A stretch of DNA of 36,988 nucleotides, from positions 1 through 36,988 of the IMG/VR virus record IMGVR_UViG_3300025886_000078; one strand, written 5' to 3'. Source of the DNA: a virus. The notes under the pieces are model-generated. The model was given only the letters and a program-made list of their open reading frames with translations. It made no database searches and had not been told where the DNA came from. Made by a program: the position numbers and the translations under genes. Of this stretch, positions 1-10,073 are shown piece by piece (the first letter of the stretch is position 1; every line of letters starts with the position of its first letter).

Positions 1-1
1 C

Positions 2-268
2 GCGAGTGATTACAATAGACAGAATTTGAGTACAGTTTTTAAAGGTTCTACGAATGGATATTGGCGGTTGAATGGCTCGCAAATCGATTCGGGTGCTGGC
101 GGAACAACCGTAAGCACAGGAACAACAAATTTGGAGTTAGGCGAGAGCGTGAACTTAGGATTCACGGGAAATTTACAAGAGGTGATTATTTGGCCTGCCG
201 ACAATTATAATAACCGCACGGGCATCGAGTCCAACGTCAACACCTATTTCCAAATTCCAGGAATGTAA
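2..268 (+). CDS. C-terminal end of a lectin-like (LamG/ConA) tail fibre protein, partial
   Basis: The reading frame is open from the window edge and ends with TAA at 266-268, so only the last 88 residues are seen. The visible sequence is beta-rich and ends in a pattern (GNLQEVIIWPADNYNNRTG, then IESNVNTYFQI) that is typical of concanavalin A/LamG-like lectin domains at the ends of Bacteroidota phage fibre or adhesin proteins, where the last strand is followed by a short helix. The likely role is binding host-surface glycans. An internal TTG at 26 should not be taken as the start because the frame continues upstream. Function rests on remembered family resemblance; the missing N-terminal part would decide whether this is a tail fibre or another virion adhesin. 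Confidence 0.6.
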   Translation, partial: ASDYNRQNLSTVFKGSTNGYWRLNGSQIDSGAGGTTVSTGTTNLELGESVNLGFTGNLQEVIIWPADNYNNRTGIESNVNTYFQIPGM

Positions 269-304
269 TGGCTACCGTATATCTCCCCGTAGAGAAGAAT
301 TAAA

Positions 305-694
305 ATGCGTATTGTATACATTTCTCTTATAGCAACGATAGGACTGCTTCTAATCCCTGTTGGAGTAGTGTTTTCTTTTACTCGTGCTTTCTTTATGTTT
401 CGCTGGAACCCCCTCCCGAAGCTTAGGAGCTACTTAAACAGCATGGGGGTGGCTTTGTCTCAGTTGCTGAATACAACGACAGCAGAGCTCTTTAATGAAG
501 TCTTGATAACCAGCAGAGGGTTTAAGTTCGGGAACGTAAAAGAAACCACTAGCTCTGTGCTAGGTAAGAACAAAGCCAAAGGCACTTTATCTCATGCAGG
601 GGAGTTTGTAGTGAGTGTGTTGAACAAAGTGGATCCAAACCACGTAGAAGACGCCTCAGGGTTTGTTCAGGTTACCGTAAAACCTCTGGACTAA
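305..694 (+). CDS. Membrane-anchored phage protein of unknown function
   Basis: This 129-residue protein begins with a strongly hydrophobic segment (about residues 4-29), an uncleaved anchor or signal sequence. The rest is soluble and contains the pattern ETTSSVLGKNKAKGTL (about residues 79-94) followed by a helix and DPNHVED. I recall an equivalent ETxSSxLG...GTL...D.NH pattern in small membrane-associated proteins near the lysis or tail genes of other phages, but I cannot name a function. It starts 36 nt after the fibre gene on the same strand, so it may be cotranscribed with it. Its last 39 bp overlap the 3' end of the convergent gene at 656-1081, which is unusual in this otherwise tidy region. 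Confidence 0.7.
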   Translation: MRIVYISLIATIGLLLIPVGVVFSFTRAFFMFRWNPLPKLRSYLNSMGVALSQLLNTTTAELFNEVLITSRGFKFGNVKETTSSVLGKNKAKGTLSHAGEFVVSVLNKVDPNHVEDASGFVQVTVKPLD

Positions 695-1081
695 AAGCCT
701 GGCCTTTTGGCTTAGCGCATACCTAACCCTATAGTTGTACTTAGTCTCGTCACGAAACAGATGATCGTCTAGGGTTTTAGACGGGGTGAGCCTACCGAAA
801 TGCTGGTATAGCAACCCTTGCTGCTGAAGGGGGTATACTGTCCTGTTTGCGAGATTGGTTCTGTTAAACCCATATTCTTCTGCCGCGTAGTCTATGGTCC
901 AAAACTCTAAGTCGTAAGCCCAAATCAAAAACTGCAGATGGCTCCATGATATGCCGTTAGACTTGCAGAAATTGTTTTTTGCAGAATGCAAGTTCTTTAG
1001 GTAGTTATTCCCTACATACTTCTCTTTCAACATAGAAAAGTCTCGAAACAGTTTCTTCTTACTGACTTTTGACTTGGGCAT
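656..1081 (-). CDS. MarR-like winged-helix protein, probable transcription regulator
   Basis: This 141-residue basic protein is the only reverse-strand gene inside the plus-strand virion block. The middle has a winged-helix layout: a helix (SWSHLQFLIWAYDL, about 45-58), then TIDYAAEEYGFNRTNLANRTVYPLQQQGLL as helix-turn-helix (about 62-91), then a short wing and a C-terminal YALSQKARLLVQRFYG helix. That order, with 'L...GLL...YALSxKAR' near the end, matches the MarR type of DNA-binding domain. The N-terminus is rich in lysine. It is divergent from the gene at 1101 with 19 bp between them, so it sits next to the promoter box at 1089-1096 and could regulate it. The fold assignment is by eye. Confidence 0.6.
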   Translation of the reverse strand: MPKSKVSKKKLFRDFSMLKEKYVGNNYLKNLHSAKNNFCKSNGISWSHLQFLIWAYDLEFWTIDYAAEEYGFNRTNLANRTVYPLQQQGLLYQHFGRLTPSKTLDDHLFRDETKYNYRVRYALSQKARLLVQRFYGNLNKP

Positions 1082-1088
1082 GATTACG

Positions 1089-1096
1089 TATCTTTG
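1089..1096 (+). promoter_or_regulatory. TATCTTTG promoter box (Bacteroidota -7 type), 4 nt before ATG
   Basis: An exact TATCTTTG lies in the 19-bp gap between divergent genes, and the ATG of the next gene begins 4 nt after its final G. A TTTTG at 1067-1071 could serve as a -33 element. The box matches the Bacteroidota -7 consensus TAnnTTTG and recurs before other genes in this window. Confidence 0.65.
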
Positions 1097-1100
1097 ATTT

Positions 1101-1400
1101 ATGAATAGTATGGATAAAGAATTTATCGCTGAAGCATACTCTTTGATCGTTCAGATAGAAGAATTGATCAAAAAATATGACTATGAAGATAGGGTTATGT
1201 CCAGCATCCTTATAGGTGTAATTGATGCCGACTTGAGTTCAGAACCCAAAGATGGGGACGAAGTCCAGTTAAAAAGCATATTTAGCTACAACTTGGATAG
1301 CGCAGAAGAACTGGAGATGATGAAAGACATCATGACTATGCAGTACCAGGACCCTGACATTGACGAACTCCTTGGCGACCTCGGAATATCTTTGAACTAA
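1101..1400 (+). CDS. Small acidic protein of unknown function
   Basis: This 99-residue protein is strongly acidic (many D and E, especially the end DPDIDELLGDLG) and mostly helical. No known motif is recognised. It begins directly downstream of a TATCTTTG box and is the first gene of a compact plus-strand run: its TAA overlaps the next gene's ATG as TAATG at 1398-1402, an arrangement that usually means translational coupling. A second in-frame ATG lies three codons in; the first is chosen because of its spacing to the promoter box. Confidence 0.6.
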   Translation: MNSMDKEFIAEAYSLIVQIEELIKKYDYEDRVMSSILIGVIDADLSSEPKDGDEVQLKSIFSYNLDSAEELEMMKDIMTMQYQDPDIDELLGDLGISLN

Positions 1401-1636
1401 TGGAAGGATTAATTAGAAAACTTGTTGTAGGGAAAGATCCTAAAAACGGGATGGCCTATTTCGTTGGCATGAGAGCTGGCGAAGGGAGGGTGTCCGCTAT
1501 CATTCAGGACGAATCTTACTTGCACAAGTTTGGCAAATGCCGTTACTTAGTGTACACAGAAAGAGAAGAGGGCACTGACCTCTGGAAGGCGATTGACGAT
1601 ATGCCATGCTTAATTGAATTTGATTTAGACTTCTAA
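1400..1636 (+). CDS. Small protein of unknown function
   Basis: This 78-residue protein shares the A of its ATG with the preceding TAA and is probably translationally coupled to it. It looks beta-rich: strands around MAYFVGMRAGEGRVSAII (about 13-30) and KCRYLVYTERE, ending in an acidic tail EFDLDF. No domain or catalytic motif is recognised. Its conserved position in a tight run of accessory genes and its lack of stop codons with sensible composition support it as real. Confidence 0.6.
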   Translation: MEGLIRKLVVGKDPKNGMAYFVGMRAGEGRVSAIIQDESYLHKFGKCRYLVYTEREEGTDLWKAIDDMPCLIEFDLDF

Positions 1637-1640
1637 GATA

Positions 1641-2222
1641 ATGAGATCCCTGAACAATTTTATTGTAGAGATAGAAAAAGAGCTTAATGACGAAATGGTA
1701 ACAAAGGGTGGACTAAAGCTCTATGTGGACACCAAATACAATGAGTTTGAGCATCGCACTACAGAAGGTAAAGTTCTGGCTACACCGATTAAGTTCGACA
1801 CTGGGGTCAGCGATGGAGACACCCTTTATTTTCATCACCATGTGGTCATCAATGGTGGGAGTCCTCTTAATAAACAAGATAAGCAATACGTTGTTAATTA
1901 TGACGAAGAGCATGCGGCGCAGAATCAGGCAATCGCTTTTAAAAAGCAAAAAGAAGGTACAGTCCATCCTCTCTTTGGCTGGGCTTTATTGGAGCCTATT
2001 GAAGAAGATGCTGAAGGACCTGAAGGGTCTATAGAAGTGGTTTCGTTAGAAGAGAACCCTGTAACACAAGGTGTTGTATCCTTTTCAACTCAACAGCTCA
2101 AAGAGATCGACGTATCCGATGGGGACGTGGTTGGCTTCAAAAAGAACAGAGACTATAGAATTAAAATTGATGGCAAAGAATACTACAGGGTTGCGATCTC
2201 AGAGCTCCTCTACAAAGTTTGA
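1641..2222 (+). CDS. Protein with two GroES-like segments, probable co-chaperonin for capsid assembly
   Basis: This 193-residue protein carries two copies of a GroES-type strand pattern. The first is GKVLATPIKFDTG followed by VSDGDTLYFHHHVV (about 43-70); the second is VTQGVVSFSTQQL followed by VSDGDVVGFKKNRDYRI and then KEYYRVAISELLYKV (about 141-193). GroES subunits have the order 'GxVLAVG...VKVGDxVLF...G.EYLIxxExDILAVI', and the ends here fit it well. In T4, gp31 replaces GroES to let GroEL fold the large capsid protein, so a similar helper role is plausible. The region between the copies (about 75-140) is longer and acidic. It is not a canonical roughly 100-residue GroES, and no mobile-loop sequence was identified with certainty. 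Confidence 0.6.
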   Translation: MRSLNNFIVEIEKELNDEMVTKGGLKLYVDTKYNEFEHRTTEGKVLATPIKFDTGVSDGDTLYFHHHVVINGGSPLNKQDKQYVVNYDEEHAAQNQAIAFKKQKEGTVHPLFGWALLEPIEEDAEGPEGSIEVVSLEENPVTQGVVSFSTQQLKEIDVSDGDVVGFKKNRDYRIKIDGKEYYRVAISELLYKV

Positions 2223-2247
2223 GACAGTATCAGCTGCAAAAAGACTG

Positions 2248-2493
2248 ATGGATGCGATGGCAATAGCCATTGACAACATGATAGAAGAAGTAAAGAAGCC
2301 AGTAGATCCAGAAGCGGGCGGGTCCGCAAGAAAGGCAGAGTTACAGTCCGTAAAGCAGACAGCTGTCGATTGCAAAGAGCTTATTCGCGAAAGACAGTCC
2401 TTAGAGCAAATGGTGAAGGAACTAAAGCAAAATGGAGAAATACAAGAAGACAAAGACTACTCTGGTGGGTTTGCGGAACGATACAGCAAGTGA
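2248..2493 (+). CDS. Small helical, coiled-coil protein; possible terminase small subunit
   Basis: From the ATG at 2248 this encodes 81 residues, nearly all predicted helix, with a charged heptad-like stretch (KELIRERQSLEQMVKELKQN). The frame is open further upstream, and an alternative ATG at 2170 would add 26 residues and overlap the GroES-like gene by 53 bp; the hydrophobic helix appears to continue upstream of 2248, so the longer form is possible. The ending YSGGFAERYSK is distinctive but not recognised. Size, helicity and position before terminase would allow a small-terminase role, but nothing in the sequence proves it. Confidence 0.55.
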   Translation: MDAMAIAIDNMIEEVKKPVDPEAGGSARKAELQSVKQTAVDCKELIRERQSLEQMVKELKQNGEIQEDKDYSGGFAERYSK

Positions 2494-2564
2494 CCATACG
2501 ATGAGAGCAGACGGGTTTAAATGGACCCAATCAAGCACTAACAACAACCATATTTATTTTAACG

Positions 2565-2897
2565 ATGAGTGGAATGATGAATACGAAAGCTAGTACTCTG
2601 GACGACCTAAGTGTTGCCGTTTTAGCATGGGCTGACGAGCGCGGTCTTATAGAAGAGGAAAACGCCCCCAGGCAGATGCTAAAGGTCATGGAAGAGATAG
2701 GGGAGCTGTCAGGAGCTTTGGCTAAGAAGAACGAGGAAGAGCTAATAGATGCGATTGGGGACAGCCTCGTGACAATCATTATCTTAGCAGCACAGATGGG
2801 ACTGTCCGCAAAGCATTGCCTTGGCAGCGCTTATAACGAGATCGCCGAACGGACGGGCGTTACCGTCGATGGCGTATTTATAAAAGATGAGCAATAA
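2565..2897 (+). CDS. MazG-like nucleotide pyrophosphohydrolase
   Basis: This 110-residue protein has the two metal-binding motifs of the MazG/all-alpha NTP pyrophosphatase superfamily: EEIGE (43-47) on one helix and EELIDAIGD (58-66) on the next, followed by the hydrophobic helix SLVTIIILAAQMGL. Family members hydrolyse (d)NTPs to monophosphates plus pyrophosphate; phage versions have been proposed to clean up aberrant nucleotides or affect (p)ppGpp metabolism. The length is right for a single-domain phage MazG. An in-frame ATG at 2574 is an alternative start. The 3' end overlaps the next gene by 11 bp. Confidence 0.82.
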   Translation: MSGMMNTKASTLDDLSVAVLAWADERGLIEEENAPRQMLKVMEEIGELSGALAKKNEEELIDAIGDSLVTIIILAAQMGLSAKHCLGSAYNEIAERTGVTVDGVFIKDEQ

Positions 2898-3108
2898 AAG
2901 AAACTACAAGGACGAGTACGAAAAGTACGGTAAGTCAAAGGCCGCAAAAAAATATAGAGCGGAGCTCAACGCATACAATAGGCGAAAGGGTACTTATGGA
3001 AACGGAGACGGTCTTGATGCGGCTCATGAAGGGGGTAAAATACGTAGGTTTATCAAAAAGGCCATAAATAGAGCGAACAACAGGCCTAAAAAAAGAGGTA
3101 GCAAATAA
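2887..3108 (+). CDS. Small basic phage protein, possibly DNA- or virion-associated
   Basis: This 73-residue, very basic protein contains the pattern GNGDGLDAAHEGGKI (about 38-52) and then a lysine/arginine-rich helix with NRANN. I recall similar 'KYRAELN..NR..G..G.GDG.D..H..G' small proteins from many marine phages, where they are usually unnamed. The GDG.D..H layout is reminiscent of a stripped-down HNH-like or nucleic-acid-binding fold, but the catalytic residues cannot be assigned. It overlaps the MazG-like gene by 11 bp and is the last gene before the intergenic region at 3109-3228. Confidence 0.6.
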   Translation: MSNKRNYKDEYEKYGKSKAAKKYRAELNAYNRRKGTYGNGDGLDAAHEGGKIRRFIKKAINRANNRPKKRGSK

Positions 3109-3206
3109 TTTACAGATATCCCCTTTCGATAATGTGTTGTTCATAAGCATTTGCCTTATATACAAAACGTTACGTTTTCGACCCCCACCACCCCAACAAT
3201 TTTTGT

Positions 3207-3214
3207 TACCTTTG
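3207..3214 (+). promoter_or_regulatory. TACCTTTG, probable -7 promoter box
   Basis: TACCTTTG fits TAnnTTTG and ends 14 nt before the ATG at 3229. It lies in a 120-bp intergenic stretch (3109-3228) that is otherwise featureless apart from a C-rich patch near 3181-3195. It is a weaker match than the TATNTTTG boxes elsewhere. Confidence 0.4.
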
Positions 3215-3228
3215 AGAAAATTCTTTCA

Positions 3229-3615
3229 ATGGAACCAGACAAGTTTACCTTCAATGGATGGAGACTCTTTTCGGTTATACTTTTATCTACTTCTCTGGGC
3301 GCTTGCGGCACTTATGCTGGCGTTAGCAAGTCACTTTATAGCGACTTAAAGGAGAGGGAGATACATCTTGACAACTATGCAGATACTGTTTTTCTGCAAG
3401 AATACAGGGCCACGTTGGAGCCTGACTACATTGCCACGCTAACGATTGATGGCAACTTAATTGGAGTGAAAGTGGATCCGTATATTATTCAGTCTACACC
3501 TGGAAGCAGAGGGTCAGAATATTACTACAGGATACATCTATATCACTCTAAAGTCGACAGCTCTTTTAGCAGTTACGTCGACAGCCTAAATCAAGTTTTG
3601 TCATGGGAAAATTAA
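3229..3615 (+). CDS. Exported or membrane-anchored small protein, candidate lipoprotein
   Basis: The chosen ATG at 3229 gives 128 residues; the frame is open back to a TTG at 3151, but that upstream part runs through a C-rich noncoding patch and the probable promoter. The N-terminus has a short positive/aromatic lead, a hydrophobic core (LFSVILLSTSLGAC, about 13-26) and then GTYAG, which could be a lipobox with C26 as the lipidated cysteine, or simply a single membrane anchor. The remainder is mixed alpha/beta with many S, Y and D. It overlaps the start of a second cysteine-bearing exported protein, a layout reminiscent of spanin pairs, though no spanin motif proves it. Confidence 0.6.
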   Translation: MEPDKFTFNGWRLFSVILLSTSLGACGTYAGVSKSLYSDLKEREIHLDNYADTVFLQEYRATLEPDYIATLTIDGNLIGVKVDPYIIQSTPGSRGSEYYYRIHLYHSKVDSSFSSYVDSLNQVLSWEN

Positions 3616-3743
3616 CCAGCCTAGCGTGTTTGTGCCTTATCGGCATGATCTGCTCTACCTGCTCACCTCGCCACTGTGAAGCATACACGGTTCATGCTGA
3701 AAAGAACTGTTTCGTAAAATGCCCTCGTAGCTCAGACGGATAG
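3603..3743 (+). CDS. 46-residue lipoprotein-like peptide that ends inside a tRNA half
   Basis: An ATG at 3603, overlapping the previous gene by 13 bp in another frame, opens a 46-residue reading frame. It starts MGKLTSLACLCLIGMIC, a good signal-peptide shape (basic n-region, hydrophobic core), followed by several cysteines (C17, C20, C25), any of which could be a non-canonical lipidation site. The stop TAG at 3741-3743 and the last seven residues are supplied by the tRNA 5' half that begins at 3721. This could be an Rz1-like outer-membrane partner of the preceding gene. Small size and the odd end lower the confidence. Confidence 0.42.
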   Translation: MGKLTSLACLCLIGMICSTCSPRHCEAYTVHAEKNCFVKCPRSSDG

Positions 3744-3747
3744 AGCA
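3721..3747 (+). pseudogene. Stranded 5' half of a tRNA gene
   Basis: These 27 bases form a perfect tRNA beginning: acceptor strand GCCCTCG (3721-3727), TA, a D-stem GCTC (3730-3733) pairing with GAGC (3743-3746), a D-loop with GG (3738-3739), and A at the position-26 site. After this the sequence turns AT-rich and no anticodon arm follows. Its acceptor strand pairs with the 3' acceptor strand CGGGGGT of the complete tRNA at 4163-4234 better than that tRNA's own 5' strand does (G7-C66 instead of A7xC66). This suggests the half was once joined to that 3' part and was cut off by insertion of the HNH element. Confidence 0.7.
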
Positions 3748-4187
3748 ATAATTTAGTTAGAATTTAAAATTTTATCCTTATATTCATGGAATGAAAAATT
3801 GCCCAAGATGTAAAACAGAAAAGCCTTTAACTGATTTCTACAGCCGTAGAGGTAAAGATGGAGGTTCTGTATACTGTAAGCCCTGCACAATAGAGCAAAC
3901 ATTAGAGAGACAAAGGAAGTTTAAAGAGCAATGTGTAGAGTATAAAGGTGGTAAGTGTGAGAAATGTAGCTACGACACGTATGTTGGAGCTTTAGAATTT
4001 CATCACGAAGACCCTAACCAAAAAGACTTTACAGTTGCACATGCAAGACTAACTTCGTTTTCGGATAAGGTTAAACAAGAACTTGATAAGTGTGAGATAC
4101 TATGCTCTAATTGCCATAGAGAAACTCATGCAAAAATTAAAGGACTTATTTAACACCCATAAGCCCTCATAGTTTAACGGATAAAAC
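3748..4187 (+). mobile_element. HNH homing-endonuclease element inserted in a tRNA gene
   Basis: The interval between the stranded tRNA half and the shared anticodon-to-3' end contains an AT-rich leader, one HNH gene and a second, diverged copy of the tRNA 5' half (4163-4187). The two halves start 442 bp apart and align closely (GCCCTC, TAG, ACGGATA in common) with several differences and one single-base indel. The arrangement fits a free-standing homing endonuclease element that carries a substitute 5' half, so the tRNA is restored on insertion. No integrase, transposase or group I intron core is seen. The exact edges cannot be fixed because the tRNA halves are similar. Confidence 0.55.
3791..4153 (+). 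CDS. HNH endonuclease with zinc-binding cysteine pairs, probable homing endonuclease
   Basis: This 120-residue protein has an N-terminal zinc-ribbon-like part (CPRC at 4-7; CKPC at 29-32), then a CEKC pair (56-59), the LEFHHEDP segment carrying the catalytic-type histidines (H71, H72), and CSNCHRETH (105-113), which supplies the second cysteine pair and the final H of the HNH fold. This is the usual architecture of small phage HNH homing endonucleases that nick or cut DNA at a specific site. The gene is visibly more AT-rich than its neighbours, with an AT-rich leader at 3748-3790, pointing to recent transfer. ATG 3791 is used because the ATG at 3786 meets a stop after two codons. Its likely target is the uninterrupted tRNA-Arg gene. 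Confidence 0.88.
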   Translation: MKNCPRCKTEKPLTDFYSRRGKDGGSVYCKPCTIEQTLERQRKFKEQCVEYKGGKCEKCSYDTYVGALEFHHEDPNQKDFTVAHARLTSFSDKVKQELDKCEILCSNCHRETHAKIKGLI

Positions 4188-4234
4188 CCCGCTCTTCTAA
4201 AGCGGTAATCCAGGTTCGATTCCTGGCGGGGGTA
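4163..4234 (+). tRNA. tRNA-Arg, anticodon TCT
   Basis: A full cloverleaf can be drawn: acceptor 4163-4169/4227-4233, D-stem GTTT/AAAC (4172-4175/4184-4187), anticodon stem CCGCT/AGCGG (4189-4193/4201-4205) with loop CTTCTAA and anticodon TCT (4196-4198), variable loop 4206-4209, T-stem CCAGG/CCTGG with loop TTCGATT, and discriminator A4234. CCA is not encoded. The anticodon reads AGA (and AGG by wobble), codons that are common in this phage. The acceptor stem has an A-C mismatch at the 7-66 pair and G-U pairs at 1-72 and 5-68, which fits a hybrid tRNA whose 5' half was replaced by the HNH element. Confidence 0.9.
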
Positions 4235-4248
4235 CGCAATTAAATACA

Positions 4249-4428
4249 ATGTCAAAATACAAGTGTGAATGCGGTAACACCGCTGATGTTCAGAACGTAA
4301 CCATAAGGGTTGTTGACGGGGGAGTCCGTCATGACGTGCCATGCGATTGCGGTAAATACATGAAACCAGCAGAAAAAAAGACTGGCATGCCTTCCTTTAA
4401 GAGTAATAGGTATGGACAGGTCCGATGA
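4249..4428 (+). CDS. Small zinc-ribbon-type protein upstream of terminase
   Basis: A 59-residue frame starts with ATG 14 nt after the tRNA and overlaps the terminase start by 17 bp in another frame. It contains two CxCG knuckles, CECG (6-9) and CDCG (32-35), spaced like a one-zinc ribbon, with a beta-rich stretch between (VQNVTIRVVDGGVRHDV) and a basic tail ending SNRYGQVR. Such small ribbons are often found just before phage terminase or in replication regions; the role here is unknown (nucleic-acid or protein binding). The cysteine pattern and overlap make it convincing despite its size. Confidence 0.65.
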   Translation: MSKYKCECGNTADVQNVTIRVVDGGVRHDVPCDCGKYMKPAEKKTGMPSFKSNRYGQVR

Positions 4429-6523
4429 CGTTATTTGGTTGGGAGACAAGCATTCAAGGGGAGAAGTCATCAAGCTCCACGGGCTTCTCGTTGGTCTTCC
4501 GAAAAAACCAAAGCGATCTGAAATACTCTTCCATGAAAAACCAAAAGGAATGCAGGTGTGGTCGCGCATTCCTATGCCCGAAGAGCTGTCGAGGATTAGA
4601 AGTATGGATGAGTGGCTCGAAAAACCTTCCGAGTTTCGAAGAAGCTTTTCTGCTTACATCGAGCAGGAGTTTGAGCGCAGGCGTAACGGTGTTTGGTTTT
4701 ACAACAATGGCGTGCCTACGTACATTACAGGGAGGCACTATATGTTTCTCCAGTGGTCCAAGATTGACATCGGATATCCTTCGTATCTTTCCTTTCAGAG
4801 TGAAATATTTCTTCACATGGCTGCGTGCGAAGCTGATCCCCGTTGTCTCGGTCAGCTTTATACTAAGTGTCGCCGTTCTGGCTATACTAATATCTGTTCT
4901 GCAGTACTTGTTGATGAAGCTACTCAAGTTAAAGACAAGCTCCTGGGCATACAGTCAAAGACTGGTAAAGACTCTCAGGAGAATATTTTCATGAAGAAAG
5001 TGGTTCCGATGTTTCGGAGCTATCCTTTCTTTTTTAAACCTATACAGGATGGCACTACGAATCCACGTATGGAACTCGCTTTTCGGGAACCATCGAAACG
5101 AATCACCAAGAAGAATAAGACGTCGCAAAAGGGCGACGCACTCAACACGATCATTAATTGGAAAAACACCACTAATAACGCCTATGACGGAGAAAAACTT
5201 CATATGCTCTACCTCGACGAGGCTGGCAAGTGGGAAAAACCTGTCGACATCAAAGAGGCGTGGCGCATTGAGCGAACTTGTCTCATCGTTGGTAAACGCA
5301 TTGTAGGTAAGGCTCTTGTTGGGAGCACTGTTAACCCTATGGGTAAGGGCGGTCAAGAGTACAAAAACTTGTGGGAGGATTCTGACCCAGACGAAAGAAA
5401 TGCTAACGGCAGGACTCGTTCTGGACTCTACAGAATATTCATACCTGCTTCTGAAGCTCTTGAGGGTTTTTTTGATAAGTACGGGATGCCTGTACTGGAT
5501 GAGCCGACTAAAAACGTAGAAGGTGTCGACGGAGAGATTATTGACCAAGGAAGCATAGATTATTTAAAAAATGAGCGAAATTCCTTGAAACACGACCCTT
5601 CTGAGCTAAACGAGGTTATCAGGCAATTCCCTCTAACTGAAGACGAAGCGTTCAGAGACAGCATCGAAGGCAGTATATTTAACATAGGAAAGATATATCA
5701 GCAGATAGATTGGAACAACAACCTATATCCTAACCCTGTGGTCCAGGGTAATTTCATCTGGAAAGAGAAAGACAAAGAGGTTCTGTTCACCCCTGACCCA
5801 AGAGGTAGGTTTAAAATAGCATGGCAACCCCCTCCTGAACTAAGGAATAAGTTCTCAGAAGTTAAGGGCAAGAAGACACCTTATAATGCTCAGTACGGGG
5901 TAGGGGGAGTCGACTCGTATGATCTTGACGAAACTGTCGATGGGAGGGGTTCTAAGGGTGCCTTGCACTTGTACAATAAGTTTAGCATGAACCAAGATAT
6001 TCCGAGCAACATGTTTGTGCTGGAGTATGCTTCTCGTCCAGACCTAGCCAGTATTTTTTATGAGGACGTTCTCATGGCTGCGTTTTACTTTGGATACCCT
6101 TTGCTCGTGGAGAACAATAAGTACGGCATCGTAAGGTACTTTGAGTCAAGAGGTTATGAAGAGTATCTTATGGATAGACCGTCACATCTAGTGGCAGCTA
6201 ATTCTAAGGTTAATGTAAAAACTAAAGGGATCCCATCTAACTCTCAAGATGTCATCCAGGCTCACGCTCACGCTATCGAAGATTACATACACAACCACGT
6301 TGGGGTGAGGCCTGAAACTGAAGATTTTGGAAGGATGTACTTTAACAGCACTCTGGAGGATTGGATAGGCTATAAAATAACTAATAGAACCAAGTATGAC
6401 CTTACAATTAGCTCTGGATTGGCTCTTCTTGGGTCGCAAAAAGTGAAGCAAAAGAAAACAAGGTCTGATTTAAGCGACAAGGTGTTCTTTAGAAAAAACA
6501 AAGTGAAAGAATGGCACCGCTAA
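4412..6523 (+). CDS. terL: Terminase large subunit (DNA-packaging ATPase and nuclease)
   Basis: This 703-residue protein has the two-domain layout of TerL. In the ATPase half, a deviant Walker A lies at LYTKCRRSGYT (149-159), Walker B at HMLYLDEAG (264-272, with D269 and E270), and a coupling motif at VGSTVNP (303-309). In the nuclease half, VGGVDSYDLD (497-506) gives the first acidic cluster, LVENN (565-569) the second, and KYDLTISSGLALLG (661-674) the last aspartate of an RNase H-like fold. It pumps DNA through the portal into the prohead and cuts the concatemer. The Walker A lacks the classic GKT/S ending. It resembles terminases of Bacteroidota podoviruses, including the crAss-like type, more than T7 or P22. 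It is followed by the portal gene, as expected. Confidence 0.93.
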   Translation: MDRSDDVIWLGDKHSRGEVIKLHGLLVGLPKKPKRSEILFHEKPKGMQVWSRIPMPEELSRIRSMDEWLEKPSEFRRSFSAYIEQEFERRRNGVWFYNNGVPTYITGRHYMFLQWSKIDIGYPSYLSFQSEIFLHMAACEADPRCLGQLYTKCRRSGYTNICSAVLVDEATQVKDKLLGIQSKTGKDSQENIFMKKVVPMFRSYPFFFKPIQDGTTNPRMELAFREPSKRITKKNKTSQKGDALNTIINWKNTTNNAYDGEKLHMLYLDEAGKWEKPVDIKEAWRIERTCLIVGKRIVGKALVGSTVNPMGKGGQEYKNLWEDSDPDERNANGRTRSGLYRIFIPASEALEGFFDKYGMPVLDEPTKNVEGVDGEIIDQGSIDYLKNERNSLKHDPSELNEVIRQFPLTEDEAFRDSIEGSIFNIGKIYQQIDWNNNLYPNPVVQGNFIWKEKDKEVLFTPDPRGRFKIAWQPPPELRNKFSEVKGKKTPYNAQYGVGGVDSYDLDETVDGRGSKGALHLYNKFSMNQDIPSNMFVLEYASRPDLASIFYEDVLMAAFYFGYPLLVENNKYGIVRYFESRGYEEYLMDRPSHLVAANSKVNVKTKGIPSNSQDVIQAHAHAIEDYIHNHVGVRPETEDFGRMYFNSTLEDWIGYKITNRTKYDLTISSGLALLGSQKVKQKKTRSDLSDKVFFRKNKVKEWHR

Positions 6524-6529
6524 GTTTGC

Positions 6530-6537
6530 TATATTTG
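6530..6537 (+). promoter_or_regulatory. TATATTTG promoter box before portal
   Basis: TATATTTG lies between the terminase stop and the portal ATG, ending 7 nt before the ATG. A second TAnnTTTG match (TAAGTTTG, 6521-6528) overlaps the terminase stop codon immediately upstream, so the promoter may be doubled. Confidence 0.6.
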
Positions 6538-6544
6538 CGGATAT

Positions 6545-9034
6545 ATGCACGGTACACAGGGAAAAAATAGCACAGGCTTTCCTGACCCCCTTGAGCCAAG
6601 GAAAACAAAAGAAGGTAGGGAGTATGGTTTGCGCTACGCAAAAGCCATTGCTTCTCAGTGGGGCAGCTATGAGCAGGATAATTCTCTGATGAGAAAACGC
6701 CGTCGCGTATTCGATAGAAATAGAAAGTACGCTAACGGAACGCAAGACACTAGCATTTATAGGCAGCTGCTTACAAGTCTAGACCCTAGCAACTCTGACG
6801 GTAGCTTTTTAAATCTAGACTTCACTCCTGTACCTATCCTCCCTAAGTTCGTTAGGATTGTAGTAAACAAAATCTTGTCTACTGATCCTTACCCCAACCT
6901 TGAAGCTGTAGACCCACTGTCTTCCAGCGAGAAGGACTTAGAGCGGAAGAAGGTTGAAATGGCTGTAGCCAACAGGCAGAAACTCAACGACATTAAGGAG
7001 AGTACAGGAGTTGACATCGCAGAGATGGAACAGATTCCTGAAACCTTAGAGGAGGCGGAGATATTCATCGGGAACAACATCAAGTCTTCTTCGGAAATCG
7101 CAGCTCAAGTGGCTACGAACATGACGCTAAAGTGGAACGACTTTAACGATGCTACTTACAGGCGTTGCGTAAATGACCTCGCTACTCTTGGAATGGCTGT
7201 GGTAAAACGATCTAATGACCCTAGCGAGGGCATTAAGACTAGTTATGTAGATCCGTCTGAGTTTATTCATAGCTACACCAAAGACCCTAACTTCGGGGAC
7301 CTGGTTTATGCAGGTCACGTCAGGCGCATCCCTATTCAAGAACTAAAGCGTATTGCTGGAGATCAGTTTACTGAGGAGGAATACAAGCAGATTGCTCAAA
7401 AGGCCGCAAAGAAGTATGGATACGATGCCAGTAAGGTTGGAGAAAGCAGTTACGACGATTACTTGAAGAGGTATCGTTTTGGGTATGACGAATACATGGT
7501 TGAGGTGATGGACTTTGAGTTTGTCTCTGTTGACTGCATGTACTTTGAGGAGAAAGAAAGCAGACACGGTAATACTGGATTTTATTACAAAGGAGATACT
7601 TACAAGGGTCCTAGCAACTCCGTCTTTAAGAGGGATGTAAAAAAACTAGAGAACGCGGTAGTATACGGAGGTAGCTACATCATGGGGTGTGATATGCTCT
7701 ATAACTACGGGATGCAGACCAACATCCCTAAGAACATGCACGACCTGTCTAAGGCTAACTTGTCTTATTCTGTTGTTGCCACGAACATGGAGGATATGAT
7801 CCCCAAGTCTATGGTTGACAGCTGCATAGGTTTTGCTGACCAGCTTCAGTTGACGCACCTAAAGATCCAGCAATCTATTGCTAAGGCTAAGCCTGATGGG
7901 ATAATCATTGATGTTGAAGGTCTTGAGAATGTTCAACTTGGTAAAGGAGGGGAGCTCCAACCTCTTGAGCTCCATGACATTTATGAGCAGACTGGTGTGT
8001 TCTACTACAGGAGTAAAAACCCTGAAGGAGGATTTCAAAACCCGCCGATCAGAGAGATTGGGAACTCAGTTAGAAACATCAACGAGTTTATCGCTTTGTA
8101 CAACCACTACCTACGCATGATCCGCGACGCTACGGGAATCAACGAAGCTATGGATGGTACAACTCCAAAAGGAGAACAGCTTGTAGGGGTTAGGCAACAG
8201 GCTATTGCTGCTGGAAATAACGCTATTTACGACATCACTAATTCTTCTATGGTCCTGTTCAAGAAGGTTTGTTCAGACATAGTGAAGTGCCTTCAGGTCA
8301 TACCCAGGGAGAGCATCCTATACAGGGCTTACGAGAACGCCATTGGTAGTGAGAACATAGGTATTCTAAACACCTTCAACAAGCTTTCTATGTACAACTT
8401 TGGCGTACAGGTAGTTAAGGAAATGGAGGATGTAGAGAAGCAATACCTAGAGCAAAATATACAGGTATCCTTGGCTCAAAAGGAGTTAGACATAGAGGAT
8501 GCTATTGCAATTAGACAGCTAAAGGATATCAATCAGGCAGAGAGGCTGCTAGTTGTTAGACGCAAGAAGCGTATAGCGGCGAATCAGCAGGCTGCTCAAC
8601 AAAACATTCAGATGCAGTCTCAAGCTCAAGTGCAGTCCGCTCAAGCCACTAGTCAGGCTAAGATGCAGGAGATGCAGGTTAAAGCACAGATTGACGCTCA
8701 GATGGAGCAGATGAAGGCTCAGATAGAGGCTCAGATGGAAACCCTAAAGCACGAGCACAGGAAGGAGATTGAGATGATCAAGGCTCAAGCCACTCTCGGA
8801 TTCAGAACTGAAGAGCAGGAGTTTAGAGAGAAGTTGGAGGTCTTAAAAGAAGACCGAAAGGACACTAGGGTTAAAAAGCAAGCTACGGAACAAAGCAAGC
8901 TGATATCGCAAAGACAGGGCGATCGAGGAGAGCTTCCTGAGGCGCAGGATTCCCCCTTGGAATCAAGCGGCCAGGAGATTATTAATAATATAATTGACTC
9001 GGCCTCTCAGGCTACGCAGCCTCCAACTCAATAA
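6545..9034 (+). CDS. Portal protein
   Basis: This 829-residue protein follows terminase directly and has the length and make-up of large podovirus portals. The first 620 residues are a mixed alpha/beta core with typical elements such as the FVRIVVNKILS helix (about 103-113) and the MIRDATGINEAMDG segment followed by GVRQQAIAAGNNAIYDI, which is characteristic of crAss-like and related portals. From about 640 to 790 it becomes an extended glutamine/alanine/methionine-rich coiled coil (repeats of MQ, QAQ, MEQMKAQIEAQ), which should form the barrel extending into the capsid. The portal dodecamer is the DNA gate, the nucleus for capsid assembly and the docking site of the connector proteins. The start is set by the promoter spacing at 6530-6537. 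Confidence 0.87.
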   Translation: MHGTQGKNSTGFPDPLEPRKTKEGREYGLRYAKAIASQWGSYEQDNSLMRKRRRVFDRNRKYANGTQDTSIYRQLLTSLDPSNSDGSFLNLDFTPVPILPKFVRIVVNKILSTDPYPNLEAVDPLSSSEKDLERKKVEMAVANRQKLNDIKESTGVDIAEMEQIPETLEEAEIFIGNNIKSSSEIAAQVATNMTLKWNDFNDATYRRCVNDLATLGMAVVKRSNDPSEGIKTSYVDPSEFIHSYTKDPNFGDLVYAGHVRRIPIQELKRIAGDQFTEEEYKQIAQKAAKKYGYDASKVGESSYDDYLKRYRFGYDEYMVEVMDFEFVSVDCMYFEEKESRHGNTGFYYKGDTYKGPSNSVFKRDVKKLENAVVYGGSYIMGCDMLYNYGMQTNIPKNMHDLSKANLSYSVVATNMEDMIPKSMVDSCIGFADQLQLTHLKIQQSIAKAKPDGIIIDVEGLENVQLGKGGELQPLELHDIYEQTGVFYYRSKNPEGGFQNPPIREIGNSVRNINEFIALYNHYLRMIRDATGINEAMDGTTPKGEQLVGVRQQAIAAGNNAIYDITNSSMVLFKKVCSDIVKCLQVIPRESILYRAYENAIGSENIGILNTFNKLSMYNFGVQVVKEMEDVEKQYLEQNIQVSLAQKELDIEDAIAIRQLKDINQAERLLVVRRKKRIAANQQAAQQNIQMQSQAQVQSAQATSQAKMQEMQVKAQIDAQMEQMKAQIEAQMETLKHEHRKEIEMIKAQATLGFRTEEQEFREKLEVLKEDRKDTRVKKQATEQSKLISQRQGDRGELPEAQDSPLESSGQEIINNIIDSASQATQPPTQ

Positions 9035-9045
9035 CGTATAATTAT

Positions 9046-9053
9046 TATCTTTG
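9046..9053 (+). promoter_or_regulatory. TATCTTTG promoter box, 4 nt before ATG
   Basis: TATCTTTG ends exactly 4 nt before the ATG at 9058, in the 23-bp gap after portal. No TTG is visible at the -33 distance. Confidence 0.62.
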
Positions 9054-9057
9054 CCAC

Positions 9058-9351
9058 ATGAAAGCTTGTAAGTCTTACAAACGTGGGGGTAGGGTTAGCC
9101 TAAAGATGGGCAAGCATAAAGACCCTAAAGGAGGCCTTACTCAAGCTGGAATAAATAAGTACAATAAAGAGACGGGGAGCAACCTTAAAATGGCTGTCAC
9201 TACCCCGCCTTCTGAGCTTAAGAAAGGTAGTAAAAAAGCAAAGAGGAGAAAAAGTTTTTGCGCTCGAATGAAAGGTGTTAAAGGGCCTATGAAAAAGCCC
9301 AATGGAAAGCCAACTCGTAAAGCGCTTGCACTAAAGAAATGGAATTGCTAA
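9058..9351 (+). CDS. Small very basic protein with KGG start, virion- or DNA-associated
   Basis: This 97-residue protein begins MKACKSYKRGGRV, a start shared with the genes at 9885 and 10063. It then has GGLTQAGINKYNKETGSNLK (about 29-48), a lysine-rich stretch KKGSKKAKRRKSFCARMKGVKG (about 56-77) and the end ALALKKWNC. I recall this GGLT..G...YN...GSNLK ... RRKSFCARM.G ... KWNC order from a domain of unknown function common in marine phages and some large viruses (possibly DUF6321). Strong basicity and position in the capsid cluster suggest DNA packaging or encapsidation; the function is unproven. Confidence 0.75.
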   Translation: MKACKSYKRGGRVSLKMGKHKDPKGGLTQAGINKYNKETGSNLKMAVTTPPSELKKGSKKAKRRKSFCARMKGVKGPMKKPNGKPTRKALALKKWNC

Positions 9352-9560
9352 TGTTAGACAGCATCACACATATTGAATTTTTAGCTGTAGCTGGCTCTGT
9401 TGTAGGGGTCTGGCTAAAACACCAAACAGACTATGCCAAGCTAGTGGCAAGGGTAGAGGGTTTGGAATCAGACAGCAGCGACTTCAAGAGAGACGTAAAA
9501 AAGCTTCTTGATAACATTCAAGAAATTAAAGTACTTTTGGCAAAGAACAAAGTAGAGTAA
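9351..9560 (+). CDS. Small membrane/coiled-coil protein
   Basis: Starting at the ATG that overlaps the previous TAA (TAATG at 9349-9353) gives 69 residues; an ATG at 9339 would add four more and overlap by 13 bp. The N-terminus holds one hydrophobic segment (HIEFLAVAGSVVGVWL, about 6-21), followed by a charged coiled coil (KLVARVEGLESDSSDFKRDVKKLLDNIQEIKVLL). This one-TM-plus-coil shape is found in haemolysin-XhlA-like and other small phage membrane proteins. A lysis accessory role is possible, but the position between head genes argues for caution. Confidence 0.65.
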   Translation: MLDSITHIEFLAVAGSVVGVWLKHQTDYAKLVARVEGLESDSSDFKRDVKKLLDNIQEIKVLLAKNKVE

Positions 9561-9561
9561 T

Positions 9562-9885
9562 ATGGCTAGAGTAAGACAACCAGGTGCTGCGGCTGCAGCC
9601 TCATTCGGACAATCAGGTAGCACTTATGCTAACGCAACTGGTTCCGCCACTATCGACGCGCCAGGCAGAGCTGCTATTGTTGCCATTCAGATTCTTTCTG
9701 ACGCTACATTTACGTCTATGACTGCGGTTACGCCTAGCACCTGCTTTAACTCTTCTGACAGCGGGTCTGGAACAGGAGGAGTCTCTTTCCCTTCCAACCA
9801 AACCCTTAGTGCTGGAGTGGTAGTTTACGGGGAGTGGTCTCAAGTTGTTCTTGCTACTGGATCCGCTATAGTGTACTTCGCATAA
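9562..9885 (+). CDS. Small beta-rich virion protein, probable decoration protein
   Basis: This 107-residue protein starts with an alanine/glycine-rich segment (MARVRQPGAAAAASFGQSG) and continues as a beta-sandwich-like chain: SATIDAPGRAAIVAIQILSD (about 28-47), then TFTSMTAVTP, a GSGTGG turn, and finally VVVYGEWSQVVLATGSAIVYFA (about 86-107). I recall this order (AT.SATI..P...VVAIQ...D..F ... G..VYG.W..V.LA.G..I.YF) from many small structural proteins of marine phages. The likely role is capsid decoration or fibre. It shares its final A with the next ATG as TAATG. Confidence 0.65.
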   Translation: MARVRQPGAAAAASFGQSGSTYANATGSATIDAPGRAAIVAIQILSDATFTSMTAVTPSTCFNSSDSGSGTGGVSFPSNQTLSAGVVVYGEWSQVVLATGSAIVYFA

Positions 9886-10073
9886 TGAAGGCTGTCAAGT
9901 ACAAAAAGGGCGGTAAGCTGAAAGTGCTTGACAAGAAAGTAAGTGTCAGCCCCCCAAAAGGGTATCACTGGATGGAAGAGTCTGGTAGGTATTACTTGAT
10001 GACTGGTGACTACAAGCCTCACCCTGGGGCTGTAGAAAAAGCAGTGTTTAAAACAGTGACTCATGAAGGCTAA
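9885..10073 (+). CDS. Small KGG-start protein of unknown function
   Basis: The ATG at 9885 overlaps the previous TAA (TAATG) and gives 62 residues. It begins MKAVKYKKGGKLKVL, sharing the MKA-K-YKKGGK start of its neighbours at 9058 and 10063, then continues SPPKGYHWMEESGRYYLMTGDYKPHPGAVEKAVF, with GYHWM...GRYYLM..D..PH being a distinctive central pattern. It resembles short 'HWM..GGYYLM.G....H.G' proteins that I recall beside head genes in aquatic phages. It overlaps the next gene by 11 bp. Function unknown. Confidence 0.65.
   Translation: MKAVKYKKGGKLKVLDKKVSVSPPKGYHWMEESGRYYLMTGDYKPHPGAVEKAVFKTVTHEG

Follow-up and report, generated by a model that had tools for sequence, protein, structure and literature searches.

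The nearest precedent for the locus described here is the set of mORF hybrid genes of fungal mitochondria, known from atp6 of Allomyces and from atp6, atp9, cox2, and nad3 of Glomus (PMC3630166). In both settings an endonuclease ORF lies in a gene, a diverged gene end that it carries is fused to the resident gene, and the native end is left stranded. The fungal cases concern protein-coding genes, the C-terminal end, a LAGLIDADG nuclease (in the atp6 example), and mitochondria, with transcripts shown, whereas those described here concern tRNA genes, the 5' end, an HNH or Endonuclease VII-type nuclease, and phages, and are known from sequence. In phage T4, the segB nuclease gene likewise stands beside tRNA-Arg and tRNA-Ile and has been tied to spread of the tRNA region (PMC2988022; PMC13096335); SegB, however, is a free-standing GIY-YIG enzyme encoded between tRNAs with an intergenic target (Table 1, PMC2988022), and the sections of the two papers drawn on here describe no split tRNA or carried replacement. 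HNH genes of the kind studied here also lie against tRNA 5' ends in phage Felix O1, although no stranded half was seen there; the sections consulted of the Felix O1 paper count six HNH genes and do not mention the tRNA link (PMC3185647). An HNH insertion in a phage methylase works differently (PMC11855218). Engineered home-and-rescue gene drives, one of which uses Cas9 against a protein gene of an insect, disrupt an essential gene by cutting it and bring along a rescue copy, as described in the part of that report used here (PMC7968924); those drives are man-made, and the phage element resembles a natural version of that design. We found no report of a phage tRNA version of this layout in the open-access literature.

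The stretch analysed here, the window, is a viral record from a phage described as Bacteroidota-type, whose terminase shares 40-48% identity with the enzymes of Flavobacterium phages and of one uncultured phage from a spring. The terminase large subunit served as the anchor for finding and ordering relatives. The features of the locus are as follows.

Window, 36,988 bases: viral record
3721..3747, + strand: stranded 5' part of tRNA-Arg(TCT), first 27 nt (GCCCTCGTAGCTCAGACGGATAGAGCA), comprising the acceptor 5' strand and D-arm, from the resident gene
3748..3790, + strand: AT-rich leader, left end of the element (sequence common to L082 and L038)
3791..4153, + strand: HNH endonuclease ORF, 120 aa, intact (PHROG 2255)
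4154..4162, + strand: 9-nt spacer from the HNH stop codon to the tRNA (sequence)
4163..4235, + strand: complete tRNA-Arg(TCT), 73 nt, hybrid gene (ARAGORN, Rfam RF00005)
4163..4209, + strand: element-derived (recoded) part of that tRNA (46/47 identical to the tRNA of L206; differs from the resident tRNA of L012)
4210..4235, + strand: resident T-arm and acceptor 3' end within the hybrid tRNA (CAGGTTCGATTCCTGGCGGGGGTAC, identical to L012)
4412..6523, + strand: terminase large subunit (PHROG 6681, E 9.5e-211)

The initial annotation, made from the window by itself, proposed that an HNH gene had split a tRNA-Arg and supplied a replacement 5' half. The arrangement it described is in place: the 5' half and the full tRNA-Arg (57.2 bits against the Rfam tRNA model) start 442 nt apart with the intact HNH ORF between them, the D-stems are GCTC/GAGC in the stranded half and GTTT/AAAC in the present tRNA, and the present tRNA has an A7-C66 mismatch where the stranded half would give G7-C66. 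The leader holds ATTTTATCCTTATATT (3769-3784), found also in L082 and L038, and its sequence is absent from element-free sites. The encoded protein belongs to the HNH nuclease family PHROG 2255, as indicated by a profile match (E 3e-38 over 118 aa) and by conserved HNH and zinc residues (C56xxC59, F70-H71-H72, C105-x-N107-C108-H109, and H113, with C56, C59, F70, H71, H72, C105, and H109 invariant). Its match to the Pfam HNH model lies below the Pfam cut-off, and the AF2 model (pLDDT 94) gave weak single Foldseek matches in the PDB (best E 0.23), the best being mostly HNH/Endonuclease VII-type nucleases. Profile matches of the nuclease were to HNH/Endonuclease VII-type families, and none was to GIY-YIG, the family of SegB. 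Integrative elements that target tRNA genes, such as tyrosine integrase islands, restore the tRNA gene with a part that they carry. In contrast to those islands, the window has no integrase at this locus, the HNH gene being the sole ORF of the insert, nor does it have identical att repeats, as the 5' parts have diverged from each other.

An uninterrupted tRNA-Arg(TCT) upstream of the terminase, which the proposal predicts for related phages, was found as a single gene in about 60 relatives. In relatives, tRNA-Ile or tRNA-Met stands before tRNA-Arg; several loci (L015, L016, L040, and L066) have no tRNA-Arg upstream of the terminase and carry other genes there. The stretch from tRNA-Ile to tRNA-Arg is a spot of variable genes, and in L013 (1-165) only the 3' part of tRNA-Arg remains, fused behind another gene. 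The sister phage of the window is L012 (93% terminase identity; tree support 99). The left flanks of the two are 82% identical and unbroken up to nt 27 of the tRNA, and the right flanks, also 82% identical, resume at nt 50 of the L012 tRNA (window 4210), indicating that resident nt 28-49 have been replaced by the leader, the HNH gene, and nt 1-~47 of a foreign tRNA-Arg. The stranded half matches the resident tRNA of L012 at 26/27 nt and continues the 82%-identical left flank, which excludes a chance origin; it has no Rfam match by itself, so its identity rests on alignment to relatives. It equals the first part of the resident allele, which supports the suggestion that it is the original partner.

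The replacement does come from another tRNA lineage, since 46/47 nt are shared with L206, a member of a distant clade (72-74% terminase identity) that usually carries the GTTT-type allele. Acceptor position 7-66 is G7-C66 in the resident, A7-U66 in the element-type parent L206, and A7-C66 in the window; the mismatch, seen only in the hybrid whereas both parents pair there, is explained by the joint between two tRNA lineages. Judged by these alignments, the present tRNA-Arg is a hybrid of element-derived and resident parts. The relatives therefore bear out the split tRNA and the carried replacement but shift their limits: resident sequence resumes near nt 47/48, where the T stem begins, rather than after the D-arm, and the carried piece covers nt 1-~47 and not the 5' half alone. 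The anticodon arm, which had been taken as normal, is also element-derived; the recoded part spans the acceptor 5' strand, the GTTT D-arm, the anticodon arm, and the variable loop. A diverged duplicate end fused to a resident gene, with the native end stranded beside a nuclease ORF, is the arrangement of the mORF hybrids, and the locus is probably a case of free-standing homing with gene-fragment rescue, known in kind and found here on tRNA genes.

The same element is present in L038 and L174 (HNH 96% alike) and, in diverged form, in L082 (HNH 84% identical to that of the window), and each of these three has an element-free sister. L038 shares 101 bp at 99% with L049, ending exactly at nt 24 of the stranded half, and L082 and L081 are 98-99% identical to either side of the exchanged segment; no stranded half remains in L082, where the exchange extended further left. 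L038 and L174 carry the same element joined at the same point on the left, yet their stranded alleles differ (GCACTCG...CTGG and GCACCAG...TTGG, respectively), each matching native alleles of different clades, and the right exchange point differs between insertions. That independent assemblies show the same junction argues against an assembly artefact. In the terminase tree, element-bearing phages are scattered among element-free ones, which we read as at least four separate acquisitions. Close relatives with an empty allele at the insertion point, together with this sporadic spread, are what is expected of a free-standing homing endonuclease.

The D-arm of the tRNA-Arg is non-GCTC in 6/6 phages with an abutting HNH gene of the PHROG 2255 family versus 4/55 others (Fisher P 4e-6, indicative only because the phages are related). 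The GTTT allele also exists without the element, since L196 has a GTTT-type tRNA and no abutting HNH gene, and recoding is not universal, as a second HNH family abuts a native GCTC-type tRNA-Arg in L091 and L061. This second family lies against the tRNA-Arg 5' end in L091 (3320-3667) and L182 (5622-5963), and in L091 the HNH stop codon is T8-A9-G10 of the tRNA.

The same HNH family was also found beside many other tRNA genes, a further expectation of the initial annotation. Among 168 distinct viral relatives of the nuclease, 52 end between -25 and +30 nt from the 5' end of a complete tRNA, in 19 of them with a stop codon that is the tRNA's own T8-A9-G10; by anticodon the adjacent tRNAs are of 19 types, mostly Asn and Arg, and cultured phages are included (Felix O1, Vibrio TCU-VP04, and Klebsiella AmPh_EK80). 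A search for stranded 5' halves upstream of the HNH genes gave 8 matches of at least 4 bits in 37 kb, at least one of which (DAC15, L275) is a complete tRNA-Asn missed by ARAGORN, compared to 1 in 71 kb of control flank. In L322, both halves of a tRNA-Asn are stranded around the HNH gene, with acceptors that pair, and a whole new tRNA-Asn is present; L355 and L444 have a stranded 5' half, then the HNH gene, then a complete tRNA; and L447 is a mirror layout, in which the whole tRNA stands upstream and a 3' half is stranded downstream. A strict search for paired stranded halves with pairing acceptors returned L322 alone among 106 phage/viral sequences and 57/81 bacterial ones, several of which were checked and are introns; one-sided cases need the looser 5'-half search.

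A different nuclease occurs in the same setting in L081 (2000-2585), where an Endonuclease VII-type ORF (Pfam PF02945, E 9e-24) follows a stranded tRNA-Ile 5' part (CGGCGAGTATCTCCTCAAGCTTAT), identical to intact copies in L031 and L043, and precedes another tRNA-Ile. On the evidence of these arrangements, the layout recurs across phages and nuclease families. In L003 (2944-3445; also L004 and L005), a stranded tRNA 5' half (GGCGCATTAGCTCAGTTGGTTAGAG) is followed by an HNH gene whose C-terminal coding end continues into a tRNA-like, unclassified sequence (anticodon TAT).

We also observed 27 distinct 78-nt tRNA-Ile-like genes (anticodons TAT in 19, GAT in 7, and CAT in 1), located at L019:213-290, L031:2433-2510, L043:3581-3658, L182:5395-5472, L336:2247-2324, L365:913-990, L454:604-681, and in L522-L551. 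Where checked, they are missed by ARAGORN; they lack a D-arm at its usual position. The anticodon arm is enclosed by a helix of 3 bp (columns 11-13/37-39; the pair in column 12/38 covaries as TA/CG/AT) and is followed by a GG-bearing stretch that resembles a D-loop. From its sequence pattern, this family looks like a tRNA with a rearranged D-arm, of which we found no report in the open-access literature. Unusual tRNA-Arg(TCT)-like genes that stand immediately upstream of HNH genes in Felix O1 (L273:1403-1483) and PAK_P2 (L276, ~1420) lack a normal D-arm and may belong with the rearranged-D-arm tRNAs.

We consider it probable that the locus is a homing element without an intron that targets a tRNA gene and carries a recoded rescue segment. 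The HNH nuclease would cut the resident gene of GCTC type within the anticodon arm or close to it, a site predicted because the replaced stretch lies there and because the introns of its bacterial kin sit there. Repair would then copy the element in, guided by homologous tRNA sequence to its left and right; the stranded half would be the left homology arm, and the right exchange would fall in or after the T-arm. The carried part would restore the tRNA, such that insertion would cost the phage nothing, and the changed D-arm and anticodon stem would make the restored gene immune to the nuclease, with which the non-GCTC D-arm in all six phages with an abutting HNH gene of this family is in line. 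The recoded part may also be too diverged from the stranded half for easy loop-out. Several observations stand against this scheme: L301 and L491 have tRNAs split by an HNH gene with no replacement nearby, the stranded half is missing from L082 and from most tRNA-abutting HNH genes in tRNA arrays, and the GTTT tRNA of L196 and the GCTC-type tRNAs of L091 and L061 depart from the pairing of element and recoded allele.

Selection on the tRNA itself is an unlikely alternative, in which phages exchange a tRNA-Arg that differs in its D-arm and anticodon stem for some advantage, for example in resisting a host tRNA-cleaving defence, and the HNH gene travels with it by linkage or assists it, in the way of SegB and tRNA-Tyr. 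SegB is described, in the portion of the study cited, as amplifying tRNA-Tyr against the Septu defence (PMC13096335), and the part exchanged here takes in the anticodon stem with the core of the anticodon loop unchanged; yet such selection leaves unexplained the stranded halves, the fixed junctions, and the same layout on Asn and Ile tRNAs, and nothing in this analysis shows a defence acting on tRNA-Arg. More improbable still, and already disfavoured, is chance illegitimate recombination, by which an HNH gene came to lie in a tRNA and another tRNA fragment happened to be joined there, with the nuclease uninvolved. The unrepaired splits in L301 and L491 are what such accidents would leave, but repeated insertion of the same gene at the same place (L038, L174, and the window), the frequent fusion of HNH genes to tRNA 5' ends, and the shared layout of other nucleases and tRNAs speak against it.

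Splicing or trans-splicing, with the first half as a real 5' exon and the insert as an intron, has very little probability, although the stranded half and the remaining tRNA would fold as a perfect tRNA (-30.0 kcal/mol) and bacterial kin of the nuclease do sit in tRNA group I introns. In bacterial genomes (loci within L367-L440; Omnitrophota, CPR, and other bacteria), the same HNH family lies within the anticodon loop of tRNA-Asn, with group I introns matching RF00028 found in L368 (1848-2567), L394, and L410. These loci share with ours the nuclease family, the tRNA target, and the order of 5' half then HNH gene; there, however, a ribozyme can restore the tRNA at the RNA level, whereas in the window a carried DNA copy would restore the gene. 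A group I intron was rejected for the window, as positions 1-10000 gave no RF00028 match at E<=1, whereas the three bacterial introns, as positive controls, do match; moreover, the insert is nearly all ORF, and the downstream tRNA is already complete. Least probable of all is a decayed tandem duplicate, in which the first of two tRNA genes lost its 3' half: tRNA arrays are common in phages and a tRNA-Ile or tRNA-Met does precede tRNA-Arg in relatives, but it was rejected on the element-free relatives, which have a single uninterrupted tRNA and among which we found neither two tandem tRNA-Arg(TCT) genes nor, in any HNH-less phage examined, a second 5' half (the two outcomes that would have told against the original proposal), and on the flanks, which break off cleanly at nt 27 and resume at nt 50 of a single tRNA.

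Homing with a carried rescue segment would explain how a homing gene persists within an RNA gene with no intron around it, namely by bringing its own recoded piece of the target, and it would mean that the principle behind engineered home-and-rescue gene drives also operates naturally, on tRNA genes. The finding also connects phage HNH genes that are free-standing with the group I introns of bacterial tRNA genes, and through this kinship the step between intron-borne and intronless homing becomes testable within one protein family. In its widest form, a claim to which we give even chances, natural home-and-rescue elements specialised on tRNA genes may be widespread in phages and form a convergent class, in which HNH and Endonuclease VII-type nucleases would cut conserved tRNA genes and recoded tRNA parts or whole tRNAs would restore function and immunize, and this class may be a main cause of hybrid tRNAs and of the turnover of tRNA arrays. 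The proposed homing offers a concrete explanation for the crowding of HNH genes in phage tRNA arrays, and hybrid tRNAs and stranded tRNA fragments that escape annotation tools are to be expected from it.
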